From contig CANJIS010000005.1 in NCBI GenBank assembly GCA_947474565.1, positions 62,001 to 126,000 on the forward strand: a stretch of DNA of 64,000 bases, read 5' to 3'. The position numbers were made by a program, and so were the translations under genes. Shown piece after piece: positions 30,505 through 55,233 of this stretch. The notes beneath the pieces are model-generated. The model searched no databases. It was not told the DNA's origin and saw only the letters and a list, made by a program, of their open reading frames with translations. Numbering within the stretch: position 1 is the first letter of the stretch; each line of letters opens with the position of its first letter. This DNA is from Alphaproteobacteria bacterium (GTDB lineage Bacteria; Pseudomonadota; Alphaproteobacteria; Micropepsales; Micropepsaceae).

Positions 30505-33401
30505 GCCGGGGCCATGGCCGCGTCGCAGCGGTTGCACAGATCCGGATTGTTCTTGTGGCTGCCCACTTCCGGCAGCACCCGCCAGCAGCGGCCGCATTTG
30601 TGGCCCTTGGCCAATGCCGCCACCGCCGCGACGTCTTTTACGTCGGGAAGCTGGAATGCACCTTCGGGCAGAATGCCGGTCATCACCTTGAAGCCCGAGG
30701 TGATCGCCACTTCTTCAAACGGCACCGAGGCCAGCAATTCGGCATCGCTTTCCTGGATGACATGCAAGGCGGGCGCCGCTTCCAGGCTGGCGCCCATCTT
30801 CTTGGCGGCGCGCTCCACTTCCAGGGCGCCGGTGACGACGCGGCGCAGTTCGCGCAAGCGTTTCCACTTTTCGATCAGGCCGGGATTCTTCCACTGCGCC
30901 GGCGTTTCCAGGAACGACTGCAGATGCACACTTTCCTGTTCGCCCGGGAAGCGCGACAGCCAGGCTTCCTCCATGGTGAAGCACAGGATGGGCGCGAACC
31001 AGGTGACGATGCGGCGGAAAATCTCGTCGGTGACGGTGCGCACCGCACGGCGGCGGTCGGCATTCGCGGGATCGCAATACAGTGCATCCTTGCGGATGTC
31101 GAAATAGAAAGCCGACAGCTCGTTGGTGCAGAAGGAAAACAGCGTGGAGGTGACGCGGTTGAAATCGTAACTCGCATAACCAGCTCGAATTTGTTCATCC
31201 AGCTCCGCCAGCTTGGCCAGCATGAACCGCTCCAGCTCCGGCATCTTGTCCGTGCCGATGCGTTCCTTTTCATCGAAGCCCGACAGATTGGCCAGCATGA
31301 AGCGGATGGTGTTGCGCAACCGGCGATAGGCATCGACGTTGGCGTTCAGAATATCCTGGCCGATGCGCAGGTCTTCGGTGAAATCCGATGACGCCGCCCA
31401 CAGGCGCAAGATATCCGCGCCATGCTTTTCCGCGATCACCTGGGGCGCCAGGGTATTGCCCAGCGACTTGGACATTTTGCGGCCCTGGTCATCGAGCACG
31501 AAGCCATGCGTCAGCACGCCCTTGTAGGGGGCGTGTCCGCTTGTGCCGACAGCTTCCAGCAGCGAAGACTGGAACCAGCCGCGATGCTGGTCGGAGCCTT
31601 CCAGATACAGGTCCGCCTGCTTGGCGCGTGGCCAATGCGGATCAATCGGCTCTTCAAACGTGAAGACATGGGTCGAGCCGGAATCGAACCACACGTCCAG
31701 AATGTCGGTGACTTGTTCAAAGTCTTCGGCTTTCCGGCCCGGGCCCAGAAAGCGTTCCGGCTTTGAGGTAAACCAGGCATCGGCGCCTTCGGCTTCAAAC
31801 GCCGCCGCGATGCGCTTGAACATCTCCGGATCGTTGACAACCTTGCCGGTGGCCCTTTCGACAAAAATTGCCAGCGGCACGCCCCAGGCGCGTTGACGCG
31901 ACAGCACCCAGTCGGGACGGCTTTCCACCATGGCGCCGATGCGGGTCTGGCCGCGCGGCGGATACCATTTGGTTTCTTCAATCGCCTTCATCGCCAGCTG
32001 GCGCAGCGTCTTGCCGTCTAAGAAGGGCTTATCAATCGCCACAAACCATTGCGGCGTGGCGCGGTAGATCACCGGCGCCTTGGAGCGCCAGCTATGGGGA
32101 TAGGAATGGCGAAGCGAACCCTTGGCCAGCAGCTTGCTGCGCTCGATCAATTCCTTGATCACCGCACCATTGGCGTCGCCATCCTTGCCTTCGGGCGTCA
32201 GGATGCGCTTGCCCGCGAAAATCGGCACGTTCGCTGAAAAGCTGCCGTCGGGCTGCACCAGGTTGAAGGCGTCGGGATTGGTCTTGGCGTAGTCGGGGAA
32301 GTTCGACATCACCAGTTCGAAGTCGTCTTCGCCATGACCGGGCGCGGTATGAACAAAGCCGGTGCCGGTATCGGCGGTAACGTGCGCGCCGGGCAACACC
32401 GGCACGGGGAAATCATAGCCCTGGCTGCGGAACGGATGCGCCGCCACCAGCGACTTCAATTCATCGGTGGTGACGCCGCGCACCCGCGACAGCATCGCCT
32501 TGGCCTTGACCGCGACATCTTCCGCCAGCGTGTCGGCCAGGATCAGTTGTTCGCCGGGCCGCGCCAAGGAACCTTCCGCTGCATCGCCGATCTGATACAG
32601 GCCGTAGGAAATCTCCGGCGAAAACGCGATGGCGCGGTTGCCCGGAATGGTCCAGGGCGTGGTGGTCCAGATCACGATGAAAGTGTGCGCCAATTCCTTC
32701 GGCGCGGTGGCCAGCGGAAATTTGACATAAATCTCGGGCGACGACTTGTCGTGATATTCGACTTCGGCATCGGCCAGCGCCGTCTTTTCCACCGGCGACC
32801 ACATCACGGGTCTGAAGCCGCGATAGAGCAGACCATTTTCGACGAACTTCGTGGCTTCGCGGGCGATCACCGCTTCGGCCTTGAAGTTCATGGTGGTGTA
32901 GGGCCGCTCGAAATCACCCATCTGGCCCAGGCGCTGAATCTGCGCCCGCTGCACATTCAGCCAGTGGCTGGCGAACTGGCGGCACTCGTGACGAAGAACG
33001 TCCTTGGGAATTTCATCCTTCGCTCTGCCCTCGGCGCGGAATTTTTCTTCCACTTTCCATTCGATGGGCAAGCCGTGACAGTCCCAGCCCGGCACATAGG
33101 GCGCGTCCATGCCCAGCATGCCCTGGGAGCGCACGACGAAATCCTTGAGAATGTGATTGAGGCCGGTGCCGGAATGGATATCGCCATTGGCATAGATCGG
33201 GCCGTCATGAAGGATGAAAAGCGGCTTGCCCCGCGCCTTCTGGCGCAGCTTGCCGTAGAGGTCCATCGCCGCCCAGCGCGCCAGCCAACCCGGCTCAGCC
33301 ACGGGCAGGCCCGCCTTCATGGGAAAATCGGTGGTGGGCAGGAACAGGCTGGATCGATAATCTTTGCCGGAATCCTTGGGATTTTTGGGGGTGTCGGACA
33401 T
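30501..33401 (-). CDS. ileS: Isoleucyl-tRNA synthetase
   Basis: 966 residues from the ATG at 33401. Class Ia synthetase: ATP-binding signature in IYANGDIHSGTGLNHILKD, where the usual HIGH is HSGT; the KMSKS loop GRKMSKSLGNT; an editing domain between them (WTTTPWTIPGNRAIAF, TGTGFVHTAPGHGEDD); and the C-terminal zinc-binding HKCGRCWRVLP...LCNRCD typical of bacterial IleRS. It charges tRNA-Ile with isoleucine in the cytoplasm. ribF lies 26 bases upstream on the same strand. Confidence 0.97.
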   Translation of the reverse strand: MSDTPKNPKDSGKDYRSSLFLPTTDFPMKAGLPVAEPGWLARWAAMDLYGKLRQKARGKPLFILHDGPIYANGDIHSGTGLNHILKDFVVRSQGMLGMDAPYVPGWDCHGLPIEWKVEEKFRAEGRAKDEIPKDVLRHECRQFASHWLNVQRAQIQRLGQMGDFERPYTTMNFKAEAVIAREATKFVENGLLYRGFRPVMWSPVEKTALADAEVEYHDKSSPEIYVKFPLATAPKELAHTFIVIWTTTPWTIPGNRAIAFSPEISYGLYQIGDAAEGSLARPGEQLILADTLAEDVAVKAKAMLSRVRGVTTDELKSLVAAHPFRSQGYDFPVPVLPGAHVTADTGTGFVHTAPGHGEDDFELVMSNFPDYAKTNPDAFNLVQPDGSFSANVPIFAGKRILTPEGKDGDANGAVIKELIERSKLLAKGSLRHSYPHSWRSKAPVIYRATPQWFVAIDKPFLDGKTLRQLAMKAIEETKWYPPRGQTRIGAMVESRPDWVLSRQRAWGVPLAIFVERATGKVVNDPEMFKRIAAAFEAEGADAWFTSKPERFLGPGRKAEDFEQVTDILDVWFDSGSTHVFTFEEPIDPHWPRAKQADLYLEGSDQHRGWFQSSLLEAVGTSGHAPYKGVLTHGFVLDDQGRKMSKSLGNTLAPQVIAEKHGADILRLWAASSDFTEDLRIGQDILNANVDAYRRLRNTIRFMLANLSGFDEKERIGTDKMPELERFMLAKLAELDEQIRAGYASYDFNRVTSTLFSFCTNELSAFYFDIRKDALYCDPANADRRRAVRTVTDEIFRRIVTWFAPILCFTMEEAWLSRFPGEQESVHLQSFLETPAQWKNPGLIEKWKRLRELRRVVTGALEVERAAKKMGASLEAAPALHVIQESDAELLASVPFEEVAITSGFKVMTGILPEGAFQLPDVKDVAAVAALAKGHKCGRCWRVLPEVGSHKNNPDLCNRCDAAMAPA

Positions 33402-33427
33402 GGGTACCGCTTCTAAACGACCCGGTA

Positions 33428-34393
33428 TCAAGCGTCCAGTTTGGGCTTCGAAGGGGCCGCCGCCAGGATCGCCCGCGCCCGGTCCGCATCCTTGCCGATC
33501 TGGGCGATCAGGGCGGGCAAGCCGTCGAATTTCGCCTCGGGGCGGATATAGGCAATCAGCTCCACCTGCAGATGCTTGCCGTAAAGATCGCCGTCGAAAT
33601 CGAACAGATGCGCTTCCATCAGCGGCACCTTGGTCTCATACATGGGCCGGATGCCGAAATTGGCGACGCCGTCGCGGCGGGCGACCTCCCGCTCATTGTC
33701 GGTGATGACCACGCGCACGGCATAGACGCCGAAGGCCGGCGCGAAACAGTGGCCCAGATGCATGTTGGCGGTGGGAAAGCCCATGGTGCGGCCGCGCTTG
33801 TCGCCATGCTCGACCCGGGCTTCCACCGCCCAGAAGCGGCCCAGCAACCTTGCGGCTTCTTCCGGCCGCGCCGCCGCCAGAAGATCGCGGATGCGGGTGG
33901 AGGAAATCTTTTCCGCGCCACTGCGCACCATCTCGAACGCGGTGACGAAAAACCCGTCCGCCGCGCCCATGGTTTTCAGCCGGACGATATTGCCGCCGCG
34001 CCCTTTGCCGAATTCAAAATCCGGTCCCACCACCACGCCGGCGACACCAAGCCCGTCTTTCAGAATGTCCTTCACAAAAACTTCGGCGGTGCGCGCCGCC
34101 ATGGCGGCATCAAACGGCAGCGCGAAGAACGCGTCCACGCCCAATTCCGCCAGCAGCCGCGCCTTGGTGCGCAGCGGTGTCAGACGAATAGAGGTGGGAC
34201 CGGGCCGGAAATATTCCTGCGGGTGCGGCTCGAACGCCATCACCGAAACCGGGCCGCCCACGGTGCGGGCCTGCCAGTGCGCCTGTTCGATCAGCGCCTG
34301 ATGACCGCGATGCACGCCGTCGAAATTGCCGATCGCCACCACCGAACCCTTCAGGTTCGCCGGCACATCGTCAAAGTGACGGAAGATGCGCAT
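33428..34393 (-). CDS. ribF: Bifunctional riboflavin kinase / FAD synthetase
   Basis: 321 residues. The N-terminal nucleotidyltransferase domain has AIGNFDGVHRGHQALIEQ, FEPHPQEYFRP and the ISSTRIRDLLA signature. The C-terminal riboflavin kinase domain carries GDKRGRTMGFPTANMHL, GVYAVRV and VANFGIRPMY. It converts riboflavin to FMN and then FAD, cofactors used by several proteins of this window. The ATG shares one base with the TGA of the MaoC gene (TGATG), indicating translational coupling. Position upstream of ileS and lspA is common in proteobacteria. Confidence 0.95.
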   Translation of the reverse strand: MRIFRHFDDVPANLKGSVVAIGNFDGVHRGHQALIEQAHWQARTVGGPVSVMAFEPHPQEYFRPGPTSIRLTPLRTKARLLAELGVDAFFALPFDAAMAARTAEVFVKDILKDGLGVAGVVVGPDFEFGKGRGGNIVRLKTMGAADGFFVTAFEMVRSGAEKISSTRIRDLLAAARPEEAARLLGRFWAVEARVEHGDKRGRTMGFPTANMHLGHCFAPAFGVYAVRVVITDNEREVARRDGVANFGIRPMYETKVPLMEAHLFDFDGDLYGKHLQVELIAYIRPEAKFDGLPALIAQIGKDADRARAILAAAPSKPKLDA

Positions 34394-34818
34394 CAGACTT
34401 CCGGTGCCGGCTTCTTGGGCGCCATCACCAGCGCCTCGCCCGTTACCACCAGCTTGCCGTCCACTTCGCAGCGGCAATCCAGCACCACGCGGCGGTTTTC
34501 CCGCAATTCCTTCACGGTGACAGTGGTCAACACCGCATCGCCGATGCGGACCGGGGCTTTGAATTCGGTGTTGGCCGAAATGAAGATGGTGCCCGGGCCG
34601 GGCAATTCATTGCCGATCACCGCGGACATGAAGCCGATGGACAAGACGCCATGCGCCACCCGGCCTCGGAACACGGTCTTCTTGGCGTATTCTTCGTCGA
34701 AATGCACCGGGTTCATGTCGCCGGTGGCTTCGCCGAACAATTGAATGTCACGCTCGGTGACGGTGTGGGAAATGAACGCCGATTGGCCCAGTTTCAAATC
34801 ATCGTAATAGAAGGTCAT
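34393..34818 (-). CDS. MaoC-family (R)-hydratase-like protein
   Basis: 141 residues from the ATG at 34818 (MTFYYDDLKLGQSAF). Hot-dog fold of the MaoC family with the catalytic pattern DIQLFGEATGDMNPVHFDEEYA and FRGRVAHGVLSIGFMSAVIG, where the Asp and His of D..N.H are active-site residues. Such proteins hydrate enoyl-CoA esters, e.g. (R)-3-hydroxyacyl-CoA formation. Lies between the HAD protein and ribF in one tight operon. Confidence 0.88.
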   Translation of the reverse strand: MTFYYDDLKLGQSAFISHTVTERDIQLFGEATGDMNPVHFDEEYAKKTVFRGRVAHGVLSIGFMSAVIGNELPGPGTIFISANTEFKAPVRIGDAVLTTVTVKELRENRRVVLDCRCEVDGKLVVTGEALVMAPKKPAPEV

Positions 34819-39089: not shown

Positions 39090-39622
39090 TGCCTTTCCTC
39101 CACCAGCGCGCGCAGCCGCGTCATCGCCAGACGCACCCGCGACTTCACCGTGCCCAGCGGCAATCCCAACGCGGTGGCGATTTCGCTGTGCGGCCGGTCT
39201 TCGAAGAAGGCAAGCCGGATCGCTTCAGCCTGGTCCGGCGGCAATTCGCGGATCGCCCGGTGCAACGCTTCGCAGCGCTCCGCCGAAACAAGCTGGTCGC
39301 TGGGCGTCGGTTCGGCCACGCCTTCAAAGAATTCCGCCAGCAGGTTCGGATCGCGCTCCCGCCGTTTGGCGTCAATGCGCAGATTGCGGGCGATGGTGAA
39401 AATCCAGGTGGAGGCTTGCGCCCGCTCCGGATCGAACATCGCCGCCTTGCGCCACACCATCAGCATGGTCTCCTGGGCCAGATCTTCGGCCAGGCCGTTA
39501 CCGGCGCCCCCGCGCAGGAAAAATCCTTTCAAGCGCGGCGCGAAATGACCGAACAGCAAAACGAACGCTTCGCGGTCACGTTTCTGGGCGATGGCGCGCA
39601 GACAGGAAGACCAGTCACTCAA
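39086..39622 (-). CDS. ECF RNA polymerase sigma factor, RpoE/ChrR-partner type
   Basis: 178 residues. The TTG at 39622 is chosen because GGAAGG precedes it at the right distance and it yields the family-like start MSDWSSCLRAIAQKRDREAF. Region 2 contains AEDLAQETMLMVWRKAAMFD and TWIFTIARNLRIDAKRR; region 4 contains LPPDQAEAIRLAFFEDRPHSEIA and GTVKSRVRLAMTRLR. Partner of the ChrR-like protein encoded next. In Rhodobacter this pair controls photooxidative-stress genes, including DUF1365- and FAD-protein genes like those upstream here. Confidence 0.92.
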   Translation of the reverse strand: MSDWSSCLRAIAQKRDREAFVLLFGHFAPRLKGFFLRGGAGNGLAEDLAQETMLMVWRKAAMFDPERAQASTWIFTIARNLRIDAKRRERDPNLLAEFFEGVAEPTPSDQLVSAERCEALHRAIRELPPDQAEAIRLAFFEDRPHSEIATALGLPLGTVKSRVRLAMTRLRALVEERQ

Positions 39623-49217: not shown

Positions 49218-50525
49218 TCAGGGTTGGGGCGGTTTGCCGTCGCGGGCGCGGGCTTCGTCGTCCAGTTTTTTCCGGGCGAGCCTGCGCGCCTCTTGCTGCG
49301 CTTTTCTGTCTGGCGGAGCCACAACCGGCGCGACGGCAGCAGCGGCGGCGGGCGGTGCCGCCGCGGGTGCGGGCGCTGGTGCTGCCGCAGGCGCGGCAAC
49401 AACGGGTGCCGGTGCAGCTGCGGGCGCCGCCACAGCAACCGGCGCAGCTTGTTTGGGCGCGGGCGCGGCATTGGCGCGGTTGCCGCGCGGAGATTCCTGG
49501 CGCGCCTTATCGGCATCTTTCCGCGCAGAGGCTTTATCGGCATCGGCCTGCCGCTGCTGGCGAGCCTTGTCCTCAACCTGACGCGCCTGATCCTGCTGCT
49601 GCTTGGCCTTGTCCTGTTCTTGGCGCGCCCGATCCTGTTGCTGGCGAGCCTGGTCTTCCGCCTGGCGCGCTTGATCCCGCTGCTGCTGCCCGTCGGCGCG
49701 ATTGCCGGCGGTCACCGGCGGCGGCGGCCCGCTATAGCCGCGTGCCCGCCAATCGTTGAAGGACTGGGCCGACTGTTCACGGCGGGCACGCTCAGTTCTC
49801 CAATCATTCTGATCCTGGACCGCATGCGCCGCGTGATAGGTGCGCCAGGAGTCCTGCTGGTTTTGCGCCGCCTGCCATTTGGCGCGTTTGTTGGCCAAGG
49901 CGGACTGCTGCGCCGCCCAGTTGGCGGCATTGACGGCGCGCCGTTCGCTGCTGCGCGCCGCGCCGTACAAGGCTGCGGCCCGCGCCAGAATGCGCCCGGC
50001 ATCGTCGTCGCGCCGGTCCCACTCCCGGTACGGCAACAGCCGTCCGTTTCCATCATACACAGCCACCAATTCGCCATTGGAAAAGCCGTAGGCATATTGC
50101 GGATCGCGCACCAGGTAAGGCCGGTCGGCGCCCGGCTGATAATAATAATCGCGATAGCCGCCCGAAACCGGCTCCACCATCCGCGTGGAACGGTTGGTGC
50201 TGCGCCACACCCAGGGATGGGAGTCCTGGTAATCAAAGCCATAGTCCGGCGGCGCGTCGCCGATGGCATCGCTCATGGCATAGGCGCGATCCACATAGGA
50301 ATAATCGTCATCCTCCGGCGTGGCGCGCGCCGCGATCCGGGGGCGGGGCGCCGGGGGCAAGGCTTCGGGCGGCGGCGCTTCGACAATGGCCGTGGGCGGC
50401 GCGTTGGTGAGCGGCAAAGGCTCGTCCACCGCGGTTGTTGTGGCATCCTGCTTGCCGCAGGCGGCCAAGGACAGCGCACAGGCAAGCGCCAGAGCGGTGG
50501 AATTGAGGAATCGGAGTTTGGTCAT
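49218..50525 (-). CDS. Lipoprotein with Gln/Arg-rich coiled coil and Ala/Pro-rich tail
   Basis: 435 residues from the ATG at 50525. Lipobox SLAACGKQ. Residues 55-200 form a tyrosine-rich region (DYGFDYQDSHPWVW, GGYRDYYYQPGADRPYLVRD) ending in a short domain YGFSNGELVAVYDGNGRLLP, which resembles bacterial YXWGXW-type envelope proteins only loosely. Then a long helix rich in Gln/Arg/Ala (DQARQAEDQARQQQDRARQ and so on) and an Ala/Pro-rich stretch, ending with RKAQQEARRLARKKLDDEAR. No known catalytic motif; probably an envelope structural protein. It is convergent with groEL. Confidence 0.7.
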   Translation of the reverse strand: MTKLRFLNSTALALACALSLAACGKQDATTTAVDEPLPLTNAPPTAIVEAPPPEALPPAPRPRIAARATPEDDDYSYVDRAYAMSDAIGDAPPDYGFDYQDSHPWVWRSTNRSTRMVEPVSGGYRDYYYQPGADRPYLVRDPQYAYGFSNGELVAVYDGNGRLLPYREWDRRDDDAGRILARAAALYGAARSSERRAVNAANWAAQQSALANKRAKWQAAQNQQDSWRTYHAAHAVQDQNDWRTERARREQSAQSFNDWRARGYSGPPPPVTAGNRADGQQQRDQARQAEDQARQQQDRARQEQDKAKQQQDQARQVEDKARQQRQADADKASARKDADKARQESPRGNRANAAPAPKQAAPVAVAAPAAAPAPVVAAPAAAPAPAPAAAPPAAAAAVAPVVAPPDRKAQQEARRLARKKLDDEARARDGKPPQP

Positions 50526-50575
50526 GCTGTGACAACGCCTGGGGAGAGTGGCTGTTCCTCGCCAGGGCGGGATTC

Positions 50576-50626: not shown

Positions 50627-50648
50627 GTCCAGCGCACATCACGAAAAA

Positions 50649-50680
50649 GCAAAAGGGCCAGAAAAATCTGGCCCTTTTGC
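50649..50680 (+). terminator. Strong intrinsic terminator hairpin
   Basis: Perfect 13-bp stem GCAAAAGGGCCAG / CTGGCCCTTTTGC with loop AAAAAT. The right arm itself holds the T4 tract. It lies 22 bases after the groEL-tail remnant. Confidence 0.7.
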
Positions 50681-50736
50681 TTTGCAGGCCATGCGGCTGC
50701 TGGGGGGAGGCAATATTATGGGGCGGTGCAGACATC

Positions 50737-50901
50737 TTACTGCGATCCCGCCATGAAGCCCTGGCGCCAGCGTTCGCGCTCCGGGTCGCGTGGATAGGGA
50801 TTGCGCACCCCCGGCTTGGTGGCGGCCGTGCGCGCCGCGTTCCAGCCCTGGGCATAGATGCGGCTATACTGAAATTCGGTCATCACGTGTGGTTCGTTCA
50901 T
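50737..50901 (-). CDS. Ribosome modulation factor (Rmf)-like small protein
   Basis: 54 residues (50901 to TAA at 50737-50739). The sequence SRIYAQGWNAARTAATKPG, then RNPYPRDPERERWRQGFMAG, follows the Rmf pattern: A-x3-G-x2-A, a central NPY, then W..GF..G near the end. In E. coli Rmf dimerises 70S ribosomes in stationary phase. The resemblance is in pattern and size; a CrpP-like relative is the alternative. The ATG overlaps the TGA of the upstream gene (ATGA). Third gene of the operon led by the EcfG-like sigma factor. Confidence 0.7.
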   Translation of the reverse strand: MNEPHVMTEFQYSRIYAQGWNAARTAATKPGVRNPYPRDPERERWRQGFMAGSQ

Positions 50902-51167
50902 GGCGAAGCCGCAGGATCAGGATGCTGGTCGCGGGCCCACGCCTGCGTCAATTCCGCCGGATCAACCGGGACAAACTCCAGCGCGCCGTCGCGCCGCAGC
51001 TGCATGGTGGTGGCGATGTGCCGCCAGGCGACCAGGGTCAAACTGTCCAGCGCTTCCTGCTCCACTTCAATCGTATACACACCCGCCGCTTCATCGTGGC
51101 TGAACCCGGCCAGCCGGAAGGGATGGCGAAAGATGACGGTCTGACTGGTAAATCGCCGGTGCATCAC
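50898..51167 (-). CDS. Small protein between sigma factor and Rmf-like gene
   Basis: 89 residues. No membrane segment or cysteine. RRFTSQTVIFRHPFRLAGF and AAGVYTIEVEQEALDSLTLVAWRHIATTM suggest an alpha/beta fold; family not recognised. It overlaps both neighbours by ATGA junctions, so it is translated together with the sigma factor and the Rmf-like protein. Could be a sigma-associated regulator by position, but it lacks the NepR or anti-sigma signatures I would expect. Confidence 0.65.
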   Translation of the reverse strand: MMHRRFTSQTVIFRHPFRLAGFSHDEAAGVYTIEVEQEALDSLTLVAWRHIATTMQLRRDGALEFVPVDPAELTQAWARDQHPDPAASP

Positions 51168-51784
51168 TCCGCCTTGGTCTTGCGGCGCGCGGCCTTGGGC
51201 ACAATCGCGTCCAGCTGCCCCATGATGTCGGCATGGCCGTGCTTGGCCGCACCCGCAACGTGCGGCACCTTCGCGCCGCTTTCTAGGAATTTCGCCAGCG
51301 CCTCACGCCCGCGCGCCACGCGGCTTTTAAAGGTGCCGTCCGGCACGCCGCAAATGCCACCGGCTTCCTGATAGGAAAATCCGGCCGCGCCAACCAAAAT
51401 CAGCGCCTCGCGCTGGTCATCCGGCAATGTCCGCAAGCCGTCGGCGACATCGCAAAGCTCCAGATACCATTGCTGGGCATCGGCGGCGGCGGGTACGCGC
51501 GCGCCGGCTCCTTCGTCCCAGGGCATCTGGCGCCAGCTGCGCCTTGCCTGCGAATAAAATTCATTGCGCAGAATGGTGAACAGCCAGGCCTTCATGTTGG
51601 TGCCGGGCACGAAACTGGTTCGCGCATGCCAGGCCTTGACCAGCGCTTCCTGCGCCAGATCTTCGGCCTGGGCGGGCTGGCGGCACAGCGAACGGGAAAA
51701 GGCGCGCAAAAACGGAATCAGCGCGGTCAGGTCGCGCTTGAAGTCGAACTTCTGCGGCGTGGTGTCTGATGACGGTGTAGGCAT
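51164..51784 (-). CDS. ECF sigma factor, EcfG-like (general stress response type)
   Basis: 206 residues. Region 2: FKRDLTALIPFLRAFSRSLC, AEDLAQEALVKAWHARTSF, GTNMKAWLFTILRNEFYSQARRSWRQM; region 4: LRTLPDDQREALILVGAAGFSY and GTFKSRVARGREAL. These match EcfG-family sigma factors, which drive the alphaproteobacterial general stress response from GGAAC-N16/17-CGTT promoters. A ~30-residue basic tail (PKAARRKTKAE end) extends past region 4. The usual neighbours phyR and nepR are absent, so this may be a secondary EcfG paralogue. Operon with two small downstream genes. Confidence 0.85.
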   Translation of the reverse strand: MPTPSSDTTPQKFDFKRDLTALIPFLRAFSRSLCRQPAQAEDLAQEALVKAWHARTSFVPGTNMKAWLFTILRNEFYSQARRSWRQMPWDEGAGARVPAAADAQQWYLELCDVADGLRTLPDDQREALILVGAAGFSYQEAGGICGVPDGTFKSRVARGREALAKFLESGAKVPHVAGAAKHGHADIMGQLDAIVPKAARRKTKAE

Positions 51785-51814: not shown

Positions 51815-51845
51815 AAAGCGCGGGAGGGCGCAATCGCCCTCCCGC
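51815..51845 (-). terminator. Terminator hairpin after the disordered small gene
   Basis: 11-bp stem GCGGGAGGGCG / CGCCCTCCCGC (51820-51830, 51835-51845) with CAAT loop and a short T tract on the minus strand. It separates the 51852-52061 gene from the EcfG-like sigma gene. Confidence 0.65.
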
Positions 51846-51851
51846 AACACT

Positions 51852-52061
51852 TCAGACCTTGGCCACTTCGGGCTTGGCCTCTTCGGCATGGCCCTTGTCA
51901 GACTGGCCGTTCGGGTTGGATTCGCCATTCGGCTTGGACGCATCCGGCTTTGCCTGCTCCACATTCGGCTTCGATGCCTGATTGGGCTGAGCGGCCTGAT
52001 CCTTGTTGGACGCAGACGGATTCGCGTTCGCCGCGGCGGGCGCGGGGTTCTGATTGGTCAT
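51852..52061 (-). CDS. Small disordered Asn/Pro/Ala/Lys-rich protein
   Basis: 69 residues from the ATG at 52061; an ATG at 52076 is an alternative. Composition is dominated by N, P, A, K, Q, S and E (AAANANPSASNKDQAAQPNQ, KPDASKPNGESNPNGQ), with no hydrophobic core, so it is intrinsically disordered. Similar tiny hydrophilic proteins are often stress-induced in alphaproteobacteria. Function unknown. The 248 bases between it and the next plus-strand gene hold only short inverted stretches (ATCGGCC/GGCCGAT). Confidence 0.55.
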   Translation of the reverse strand: MTNQNPAPAAANANPSASNKDQAAQPNQASKPNVEQAKPDASKPNGESNPNGQSDKGHAEEAKPEVAKV

Positions 52062-52309
52062 GGTGGGATCTTTCATGATGGCTGTCAGGTGCCACCGCAC
52101 TGTGAGATGGTGATCGGATAACGCGCACACAAGCCGCGCGCCCAAATAAACCCGCCAGGTATGGGCGGTATTAATGTCACGTATGGTGCCAATCGGCCGA
52201 TTTCAATGCGATATCGGCCAATCTCACCGAATAGCGCCAGATAAACCGGCAACGGCGCGCCGCACCTGATAGTGTCTGCCACAATCCGGAGATTTGAGAT
52301 GGCCGCGCT

Positions 52310-52516
52310 TTGAACCGCATTCCGAGCGCCGATGAACTCACCTCTTCGGAATTCATGTCGCTGGTGCTGGTATCGCGCGGTTTCATGAGCAAAGGCACCA
52401 TACCGCGGGCGCATCAGGCGCGGCTGGTGGAGCTGGGCCTTATTCATCTCGCCCTGGGCGGCATGATGGCAACTCCGGCGGGCAGCATGGTGGCGCGCAT
52501 CCAAATCGGCGGCTGA
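52310..52516 (+). CDS. Small helical protein of unknown function
   Basis: 68 residues with a TTG at 52310, or a shorter form from the ATG at 52355. The stretch SSEFMSLVLVSRGFMSKG, then AHQARLVELGLIHLALGGMMATPAG, reads like the short winged-helix-like proteins found in many alphaproteobacteria (a helix-turn-helix followed by TPAG and a strand). DNA binding is possible but not shown. First of four small genes in a row. Confidence 0.5.
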   Translation: MNRIPSADELTSSEFMSLVLVSRGFMSKGTIPRAHQARLVELGLIHLALGGMMATPAGSMVARIQIGG

Positions 52517-52556
52517 ATCGCAATTGGCGCAGAACGAGACGAGAAACAACAACGTG

Positions 52557-52967
52557 ATGACAAACAAAAGCACTGCCCGCCTGCGGGCCGACAATGCCTT
52601 CGCCGCCCTGCGGCCCTATGCCGAACCGCCCACCATCGTGAACGAATTGATCGCCGTGCTGGCGCCACATCCCAAAGGTTTGCGCCGCTGGTCGGTGATG
52701 CGCGCCATCCGTGACATCCGCAACAAAGACAGCCGCGCCATGTCGCTCAAATTCGAAATCGAAGTCGAGCGCGCGTTCCGGGGCGCCTGCAGCAATTGCG
52801 CCGAAGGCAACAACAATCCCGACGCGCCGTTCTTCCGGCCGGAAGGCAAGGCGGGCGAAGTCTGGGCCCTGCATCCCCGGCACAATCCTGCCAACGTGTC
52901 TGAAAGCGCGCCCGAAAGCCCGCCCGAGAACGTATCTGAGAGCGTCCCCGAGAGCATCCATGAATAA
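52557..52967 (+). CDS. Protein of unknown function with CxxC
   Basis: 136 residues from the ATG at 52557; TTG at 52524 possible. The N-terminal ~75 residues are helical (RLRADNAFAALRPYAEPPTI, GLRRWSVMRAIRDIRNKD). GACSNCAEG provides a single CxxC. A tail of Ser/Pro/Glu repeats follows (VSESAPESPPENVSESVPES), made of near-identical VSES-PES units. No family recognised. Its end overlaps the next ATG by eight bases. Confidence 0.55.
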   Translation: MTNKSTARLRADNAFAALRPYAEPPTIVNELIAVLAPHPKGLRRWSVMRAIRDIRNKDSRAMSLKFEIEVERAFRGACSNCAEGNNNPDAPFFRPEGKAGEVWALHPRHNPANVSESAPESPPENVSESVPESIHE

Positions 52968-53202
52968 CGGCCGCCCCATGTCCGAACACGAAGGCGCGCT
53001 GTTCGATGCCGTGCTGGTGCTGGCCGCCACCATGCTCGACATGGGCGCCGATTCCGCAATATTGCGCGAACGCCTCACCGCCGCCCGCGCCACCGCCGAT
53101 ACCCGCGGCAACCGCCACGGCGTCGAGACTCTGGATTTTCTGATCACCAGCCTGTTCGCCGAAGGTGCGCCGCCCGCCAAACCGTCTTTTCGCGTCGTAT
53201 GA
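52960..53202 (+). CDS. Small protein of unknown function
   Basis: 80 residues; the ATG at 52960 overlaps the end of the previous gene, and a second ATG at 52978 is possible. Mostly helical (EGALFDAVLVLAATMLDMGADSA..., RERLTAARATAD) with a hydrophobic ETLDFLITSLFAE near the C-terminus. No family recognised. Probably cotranscribed with its neighbours. Confidence 0.5.
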   Translation: MNNGRPMSEHEGALFDAVLVLAATMLDMGADSAILRERLTAARATADTRGNRHGVETLDFLITSLFAEGAPPAKPSFRVV

Positions 53203-53227
53203 CGCCCATCAACGAGGCCCAAGCCTG

Positions 53228-53434
53228 ATGACCGAAGACCTGACCACCTATCTGGAATATGAGATCGGCATTATCGCCGACGGCGCCCGCTTCAAGGCGC
53301 GCGTCACCCGCGAAGGCGGGCTGATCGAACATGACGGCCGGGCCTCGGAAATCTGGATGTCGGCCAGTTGCGTCAGCCGCGACAAGGCGTTGTGGGTCGC
53401 CAAAAACGCCATAGATACCGACACAATTCGCTAA
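53228..53434 (+). CDS. Small protein of unknown function
   Basis: 68 residues from the ATG at 53228. The sequence EYEIGIIADGARFKARVTRE, then GRASEIWMSASCVSRDKALWVAKNAID, suggests a beta sheet with one helix. No signal peptide. Last of the four small genes; the NHL-propeller gene starts 85 bases later. Confidence 0.5.
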   Translation: MTEDLTTYLEYEIGIIADGARFKARVTREGGLIEHDGRASEIWMSASCVSRDKALWVAKNAIDTDTIR

Positions 53435-55207: not shown

Positions 55208-55233
55208 GGAACCTCCCGGCCCGCAAGACCGTT
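55208..55233 (+). promoter_or_regulatory. EcfG (general stress response) promoter
   Basis: GGAAC (55208-55212), a 17-base spacer and CGTT (55230-55233), an exact match to the alphaproteobacterial EcfG consensus. It is 35 bases upstream of the ATG at 55268. An EcfG-like sigma factor is encoded at 51164-51784. Confidence 0.7.

Follow-up and report, generated by a model that had tools for sequence, protein, structure and literature searches.

In a 64,000-nucleotide stretch of alphaproteobacterial DNA (the window), we found that the genes of an EcfG-type sigma factor, an uncharacterised protein (the middle protein) and a 54-residue Rmf-like protein form a real operon, conserved in part and in part relict, and that the canonical EcfG of this genome is broken. 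Since the canonical ecfG is broken, this operon carries the sole intact EcfG of the genome; a genome search at E<=1e-25 gave just two EcfG-type matches, the window sigma factor and the broken canonical gene. That the three genes act as a stress operon around the sigma factor, by the mechanism proposed below as a whole, has in our judgement an even chance of being right.

All three open reading frames were found on the minus strand of the window, where the earlier note had placed them (Table 1). That note had described two ATGA overlaps, and this proved right for one of the two junctions. The middle and Rmf-like genes overlap by 4 bases (ATGA), and inspection of the junction sequence revealed no evident ribosome-binding site ahead of the Rmf-like gene, which fits translational coupling at this junction. 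The sigma/middle junction reads GAGTGATGCAC, and with the ATG start, the invariant first residue in the middle-protein family, the overlap is a single base (TGATG); a 4-base GTGA overlap arises solely with the GTG start. The purine-rich sequence AAGGCGGAG lies upstream of the middle gene. The operon is flanked by a very stable hairpin downstream, which is probably a bidirectional terminator ending it, and by a terminator-like hairpin upstream. A gene similar to the small Asn/Pro/Lys-rich gene precedes a sigma remnant in the related genome G298, and homologues of the four small divergent genes recur beside csp, ArsC-like and Rmf-like genes across congeners.

Table 1. Features in and around the operon, with positions in the window.
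Feature	Position	Strand	Remarks
Perfect EcfG consensus GGAAC-N16-CGTT	50534..50558	-	9 bases upstream of lipoprotein gene 49218-50525; does not precede the sigma operon
Strong inverted repeat with A/T tails	50646..50683		Directly 3' of the Rmf-like gene; fold z -6.7
Rmf-like gene	50737..50901	-	54 aa; NPYP loop between two predicted helices
Middle gene	50898..51164	-	88 aa from ATG; 89 aa from GTG at 51167, one codon upstream
EcfG2-type sigma gene	51164..51784	-	206 aa; sole intact EcfG-type sigma found in the genome
Terminator-like hairpin	51819..51846	-	Separates the small upstream gene from the sigma gene
Small Asn/Pro/Lys-rich gene	51852..52076	-	74 aa; upstream of sigma
Four small uncharacterised genes	52310..53434	+	68, 136, 74 and 70 aa; divergent from the operon
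Perfect EcfG consensus GGAAC-N17-CGTT	55208..55233	+	Upstream of a small glycine-rich membrane protein gene

The description of the sigma factor as EcfG-like was borne out by domains, similarity and phylogeny, which identify it as a paralog of the EcfG2 type. The protein contains Sigma70_r2 (2.9e-16) and Sigma70_r4_2 (3.1e-11) domains, and its nearest relatives are the NepR-linked EcfG proteins of its genus, with about 52-59% identity; ECF-type sigma-70 regions 2 and 4 together with this closest similarity assign it to EcfG (ECF15). The setting of the canonical copy, with nepR directly upstream and phyR nearby, was not found at the window sigma gene, and nepR lies on contig C2 beside the broken ecfG, so the window sigma factor is a paralog and not the canonical copy. 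In a tree of 52 sequences (row L175_canonNepR being the G304 paralog, a duplicate of G304p), it grouped with eight other copies without NepR linkage, apart from the canonical EcfGs (SH-aLRT 88), and the branching order inside this EcfG2 group, its own placement included, is unsure because of long branches. The EcfG2 proteins have common departures from the canonical sequence, such as VARGR for VARAR in several of them, which fall near the promoter-recognition regions; the KSRVAR stretch is retained, and the window sigma factor keeps 24 of the 30 near-invariant positions of region 4. A second ECF sigma gene in the window (39113-39499, minus strand) is weakly similar to EcfG2 (1e-10).

Second EcfG sigma factors have been described in other alphaproteobacteria, including R. 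etli EcfG2, C. crescentus SigU, S. granuli EcfG2 and the M. extorquens paralogs (PMC3892343, PMC4814048, PMC7083833). The window sigma factor resembles them in being of EcfG type and an extra copy beside a canonical NepR-linked gene. Unlike in those cases, the canonical copy is broken here, and the paralog shares its operon with a conserved, uncharacterised gene and an Rmf-like gene. In the literature searched, we found no description of such an operon and no paper that treats RMF together with EcfG.

The canonical locus, with nepR, ecfG and phyR, was found on contig C2 of the source genome (G000) at about 32752-34420 (locus L067, 7723-9420). There, nepR is intact, whereas ecfG is interrupted by an in-frame TAG following EFKT and by a frameshift following NQENAD, so that the remaining open frame of 172 aa is without the start of region 2, and phyR has lost about 45 residues through an in-frame deletion that takes out the sigma4-like stretch of intact relatives. 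The earlier statement that phyR and nepR are absent thus holds within the window and fails genome-wide. Compared with the PhyR-NepR-EcfG partner switch, the locus is recognisable and EcfG-type promoters are present, and the difference is that ecfG is a pseudogene and PhyR is without its sigma4-like region. The broken ecfG clusters with the canonical copies in the tree and is 88% identical to the ecfG of G014 over 171 columns, so its decay looks recent. In G014 itself (L026, 2473-3253), phyR is split over reading frames and adjoins an apparently intact nepR-ecfG pair. Of the 69 genomes surveyed in the genus, the same 15 lack both EcfG and NepR, near-complete genomes of 2.2-3.8 Mb included; the whole stress switch has been lost repeatedly in the genus.

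To characterise the promoters, we searched for the motif GGAAC-N16/17-NGTT. It was found upstream of 22/22 canonical nepR-ecfG operons tested and of one of the nine EcfG2 genes, and the sigma operon of the window is without an EcfG promoter; in R. etli, the EcfG1 motif was reported in just 1/19 EcfG2-dependent units (PMC3892343). In the whole genome, the strict consensus occurred 38 times and the reversed control pattern, which may be enriched in coding sequence, 79 times; since the control is the commoner, the EcfG-type regulon that remains in the genome seems small. Half of the 30 consensus sites examined (15) were intergenic and 12 had an ORF just downstream, against one and none of 30 reversed-pattern sites, the gene calls around the sites coming from a simple hexamer score trained on the window. 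From these sites we infer that the window sigma factor may read the remaining GGAAC-N16/17-CGTT promoters; they could also be relics of the recently lost EcfG. The leader of the lipoprotein gene 49218-50525 after its consensus is unusually short. A general tie of the stress regulon to the Rmf-like gene is not supported: in contrast to the canonical operons, 0/22 middle-first or rmf-first units in congeners have an EcfG promoter. A dyad search for a common promoter upstream of the Rmf-like units gave nothing above random segments of the same loci.

In the survey of the 69 genomes, 18 had the middle gene and 32 the Rmf-like gene. The two genes stand side by side on one strand in 12 of the 18 genomes with the middle gene (G000, G004, G022, G024, G027, G028, G031, G034, G035, G283, G297 and G298); in G004, G024 and G031 they are separated by an ArsC-like gene. 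The sigma gene adjoins in four genomes, in the orders sigma-middle-Rmf (G000), sigma-middle-ArsC-Rmf (G004) and sigma-Rmf (G291 and G304), so that sigma-Rmf linkage is found in four of the nine EcfG2 copies. The same three-gene order, which the earlier note had proposed to look for elsewhere, is therefore conserved in part only, namely as the middle-Rmf pair and as sigma by Rmf in four of the 69. In G283, G298 and G002, which are without a sigma gene at this place, the DNA ahead of the middle or Rmf-like gene matches the 3' end of the G291 or G304 sigma gene together with the bases following it (nhmmer values 2e-14, 4e-14 and 7e-9, respectively), and it reads ILAQLSALTPA in G283 and VLA-stop-PSAL in G298. 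We read this DNA, found in at least three species, as putative remnants of a lost sigma gene; possibly it is a conserved regulatory element overlapping the sigma tail. The 68-aa gene of the divergent group lies ahead of sigma-Rmf in G304, of middle-Rmf in G035 and of Rmf in G015, and these flanks agree with sigma loss. Among the 15 genomes without EcfG and NepR, eight keep the Rmf-like gene and six the middle gene, indicating that the Rmf-like protein does not need EcfG. The sigma-Rmf link is a variant in part of the genus and not general. The coupling of the sigma and Rmf-like genes in one operon is nevertheless backed by the overlaps, the sigma-Rmf adjacency in G004, G291 and G304, and the relict sigma tails, and a coupling of the two via a shared mRNA is plausible in this genome.

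The middle protein matched no Pfam or NCBIfam family. Its predicted fold is a beta-sheet with a C-terminal helix (pLDDT 87); a Foldseek search against the PDB gave no significant match (best E 0.2), and the VIA comparison gave low Z values throughout (best 4.0), with no trustworthy match to solved structures. Neither a NepR motif nor the helical NepR fold was found, given the lack of a family match and the predicted beta-sheet. The pattern scan for relatives used a subset of the aligned sequences, the full set being too diverse. Azospirillum, Inquilinus, Roseicella, Belnapia and others carry relatives that have neither EcfG nor such Rmf-like genes beside them, and outside the genus no constant partner gene was found beside the middle gene. 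Because the family also occurs without any EcfG, the middle protein is a member of a widespread uncharacterised family and not a dedicated EcfG regulator. The earlier note had suggested that it might be a different type of regulator, which as a replacement anti-sigma factor does not agree with this distribution, and the middle protein as a NepR replacement was dropped on the same ground.

For the 54-residue protein, the name Rmf-like stands for the fold, with weak to moderate support, and an Rmf function is not borne out at the residue level. The PF04957 match (E=0.0082, 16.6 bits) is below the curated cut-off of 27.9. The NCBIfam RMF model was matched by four members of the family (best 0.0048) and the Rmf/CrpP family by one (0.053). 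Profile comparison with E. coli and Vibrio RMF gave, over 43 columns, P of about 0.0007 and a probability of just 27%, and a plain pairwise alignment to RMF was not significant, 57/1000 shuffles being as good. The predicted structure consists of helices 9-26 and 41-53 and a loop (pLDDT 85). Among the 38 chains compared by VIA, RMF 2jrm ranked second (Z 4.6, rmsd 2.8, 47 residues) behind an unrelated fibulin fragment (Z 5.7), and Foldseek against the PDB found no significant match (best E 4.3). A PDB sequence search with the Rmf-like and middle-protein alignments found no relative, and PHROGs gave just weak matches of single members of the Rmf-like family. A two-helix Rmf fold is plausible, though not established, for this protein. 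A PF04957 search of 240 alphaproteobacterial genomes gave eight matches, one above the cut-off and mostly RMF-like stretches in longer proteins; such stretches lie at the C-terminal end of longer alphaproteobacterial proteins in L125, L127 and L129.

In E. coli RMF, replacing any of eleven residues (R3, K5, R11, G16, G23, C29, P30, W40, G43, W44 and R45) impaired 100S formation, alanine at such single positions sufficed to reduce 100S drastically, and R3, K5 and R45 contact 16S rRNA (PMC8126665). Five of the eleven (R11, G16, P30, W40 and G43) are kept in the 54-residue protein, W44 is replaced by F, and R3, K5, G23, C29 and R45 are missing. As most of the rRNA-contact and dimerisation residues are absent, 100S formation by this protein appears unlikely. 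It resembles RMF (PF04957; PDB 2jrm, 4v8g and 6h4n) in its length of about 55 residues, its two predicted helices, PY loop and conserved G/W/G spacing, and it differs in having no basic N-terminus, G23, C29 or R45 and in being alphaproteobacterial and encoded beside a sigma gene; part of its family also has a longer loop and an acidic pI. The pI in the family ranges from 4.8 to 11.3, with several acidic members and 10.0 for the window protein, which counts against one rRNA-binding mode common to the family. The 54-residue protein would thus be at most an Rmf scaffold with other contacts, and we did not file it as RMF.

Taken together, we propose that the window sigma factor would guide RNA polymerase to those EcfG-type promoters that remain, as a substitute for the broken canonical EcfG, that its activity would be set mainly by the expression of the operon, and that the intact NepR perhaps still restrains it. 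The middle and Rmf-like proteins would be co-produced from the sigma message as protective partners, and the 54-residue protein would keep the Rmf scaffold and act without E. coli-type 100S formation, possibly through another kind of contact with the ribosome or with RNA. The sigma-Rmf linkage would be older than the species, with the sigma gene repeatedly lost and the Rmf-like gene kept. A rather unlikely alternative makes the sigma gene a passenger within an older cluster of small genes of stress type, among them csp, ArsC/Spx-like and Rmf-like genes. Its adjacency would then reflect common expression in stationary phase or retention by chance, without any functional tie to the Rmf-like protein. 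This would agree with the Rmf-like genes of congeners standing mostly with csp or arsC and without sigma, with their persistence in the eight EcfG-less genomes and with the lack of EcfG promoters before the middle-first and rmf-first units, but the linkage in four of nine EcfG2 copies, the relict tails in at least three more species and the overlap of both junctions in the window speak against it.

The decay of the canonical ecfG and phyR might be an assembly artefact, which would leave the window sigma factor merely a minor second EcfG as in Caulobacter. The assembly is a draft in 39 contigs and one of the lesions is a single-base frameshift; against this stand three lesion types (a substitution to TAG, a frameshift and the in-frame loss of about 45 codons) spread over two adjacent genes and an assembly completeness of 99.84% with 0.1% contamination, which make an artefact very unlikely. 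It is decidedly improbable as well that the 54-residue protein is a working RMF which dimerises ribosomes into 100S and couples sigma production to hibernation: the residues missing from it and the replacement of W44 argue against this, given how drastic single alanines are in E. coli (PMC8126665), as do the acidic members of its family, while the plausible fold, the five residues kept, the weak PF04957 and PRK14563 matches, the basic pI and an HPF-domain protein encoded in the genome are in its favour. The position of the middle gene directly after sigma, here and in G004, would suit a new anti-sigma or anti-anti-sigma factor for EcfG2. Such a role is extremely unlikely, since the middle gene occurs in six congeners without EcfG and NepR and in Rhodospirillales without EcfG nearby, and is not present where sigma adjoins Rmf in G291 and G304.

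The most far-reaching form of the proposed mechanism, in which a stress sigma factor freed from PhyR-NepR has its output set by its own operon and is translated together with a non-canonical protein of Rmf fold that tunes ribosomes without forming 100S particles, is quite unlikely; if it were true, one message would reset both transcription and translation. The genome is a natural example of decay of the standard stress switch of alphaproteobacteria, with a second-type sigma factor and apparent target promoters still in place; added to this is a genus-wide, partly relict link between an EcfG2 sigma factor and an Rmf-like gene. As a defined operon, it makes testable the role of second EcfG copies and a possible wiring of stress transcription to ribosome inactivation outside the gammaproteobacteria.
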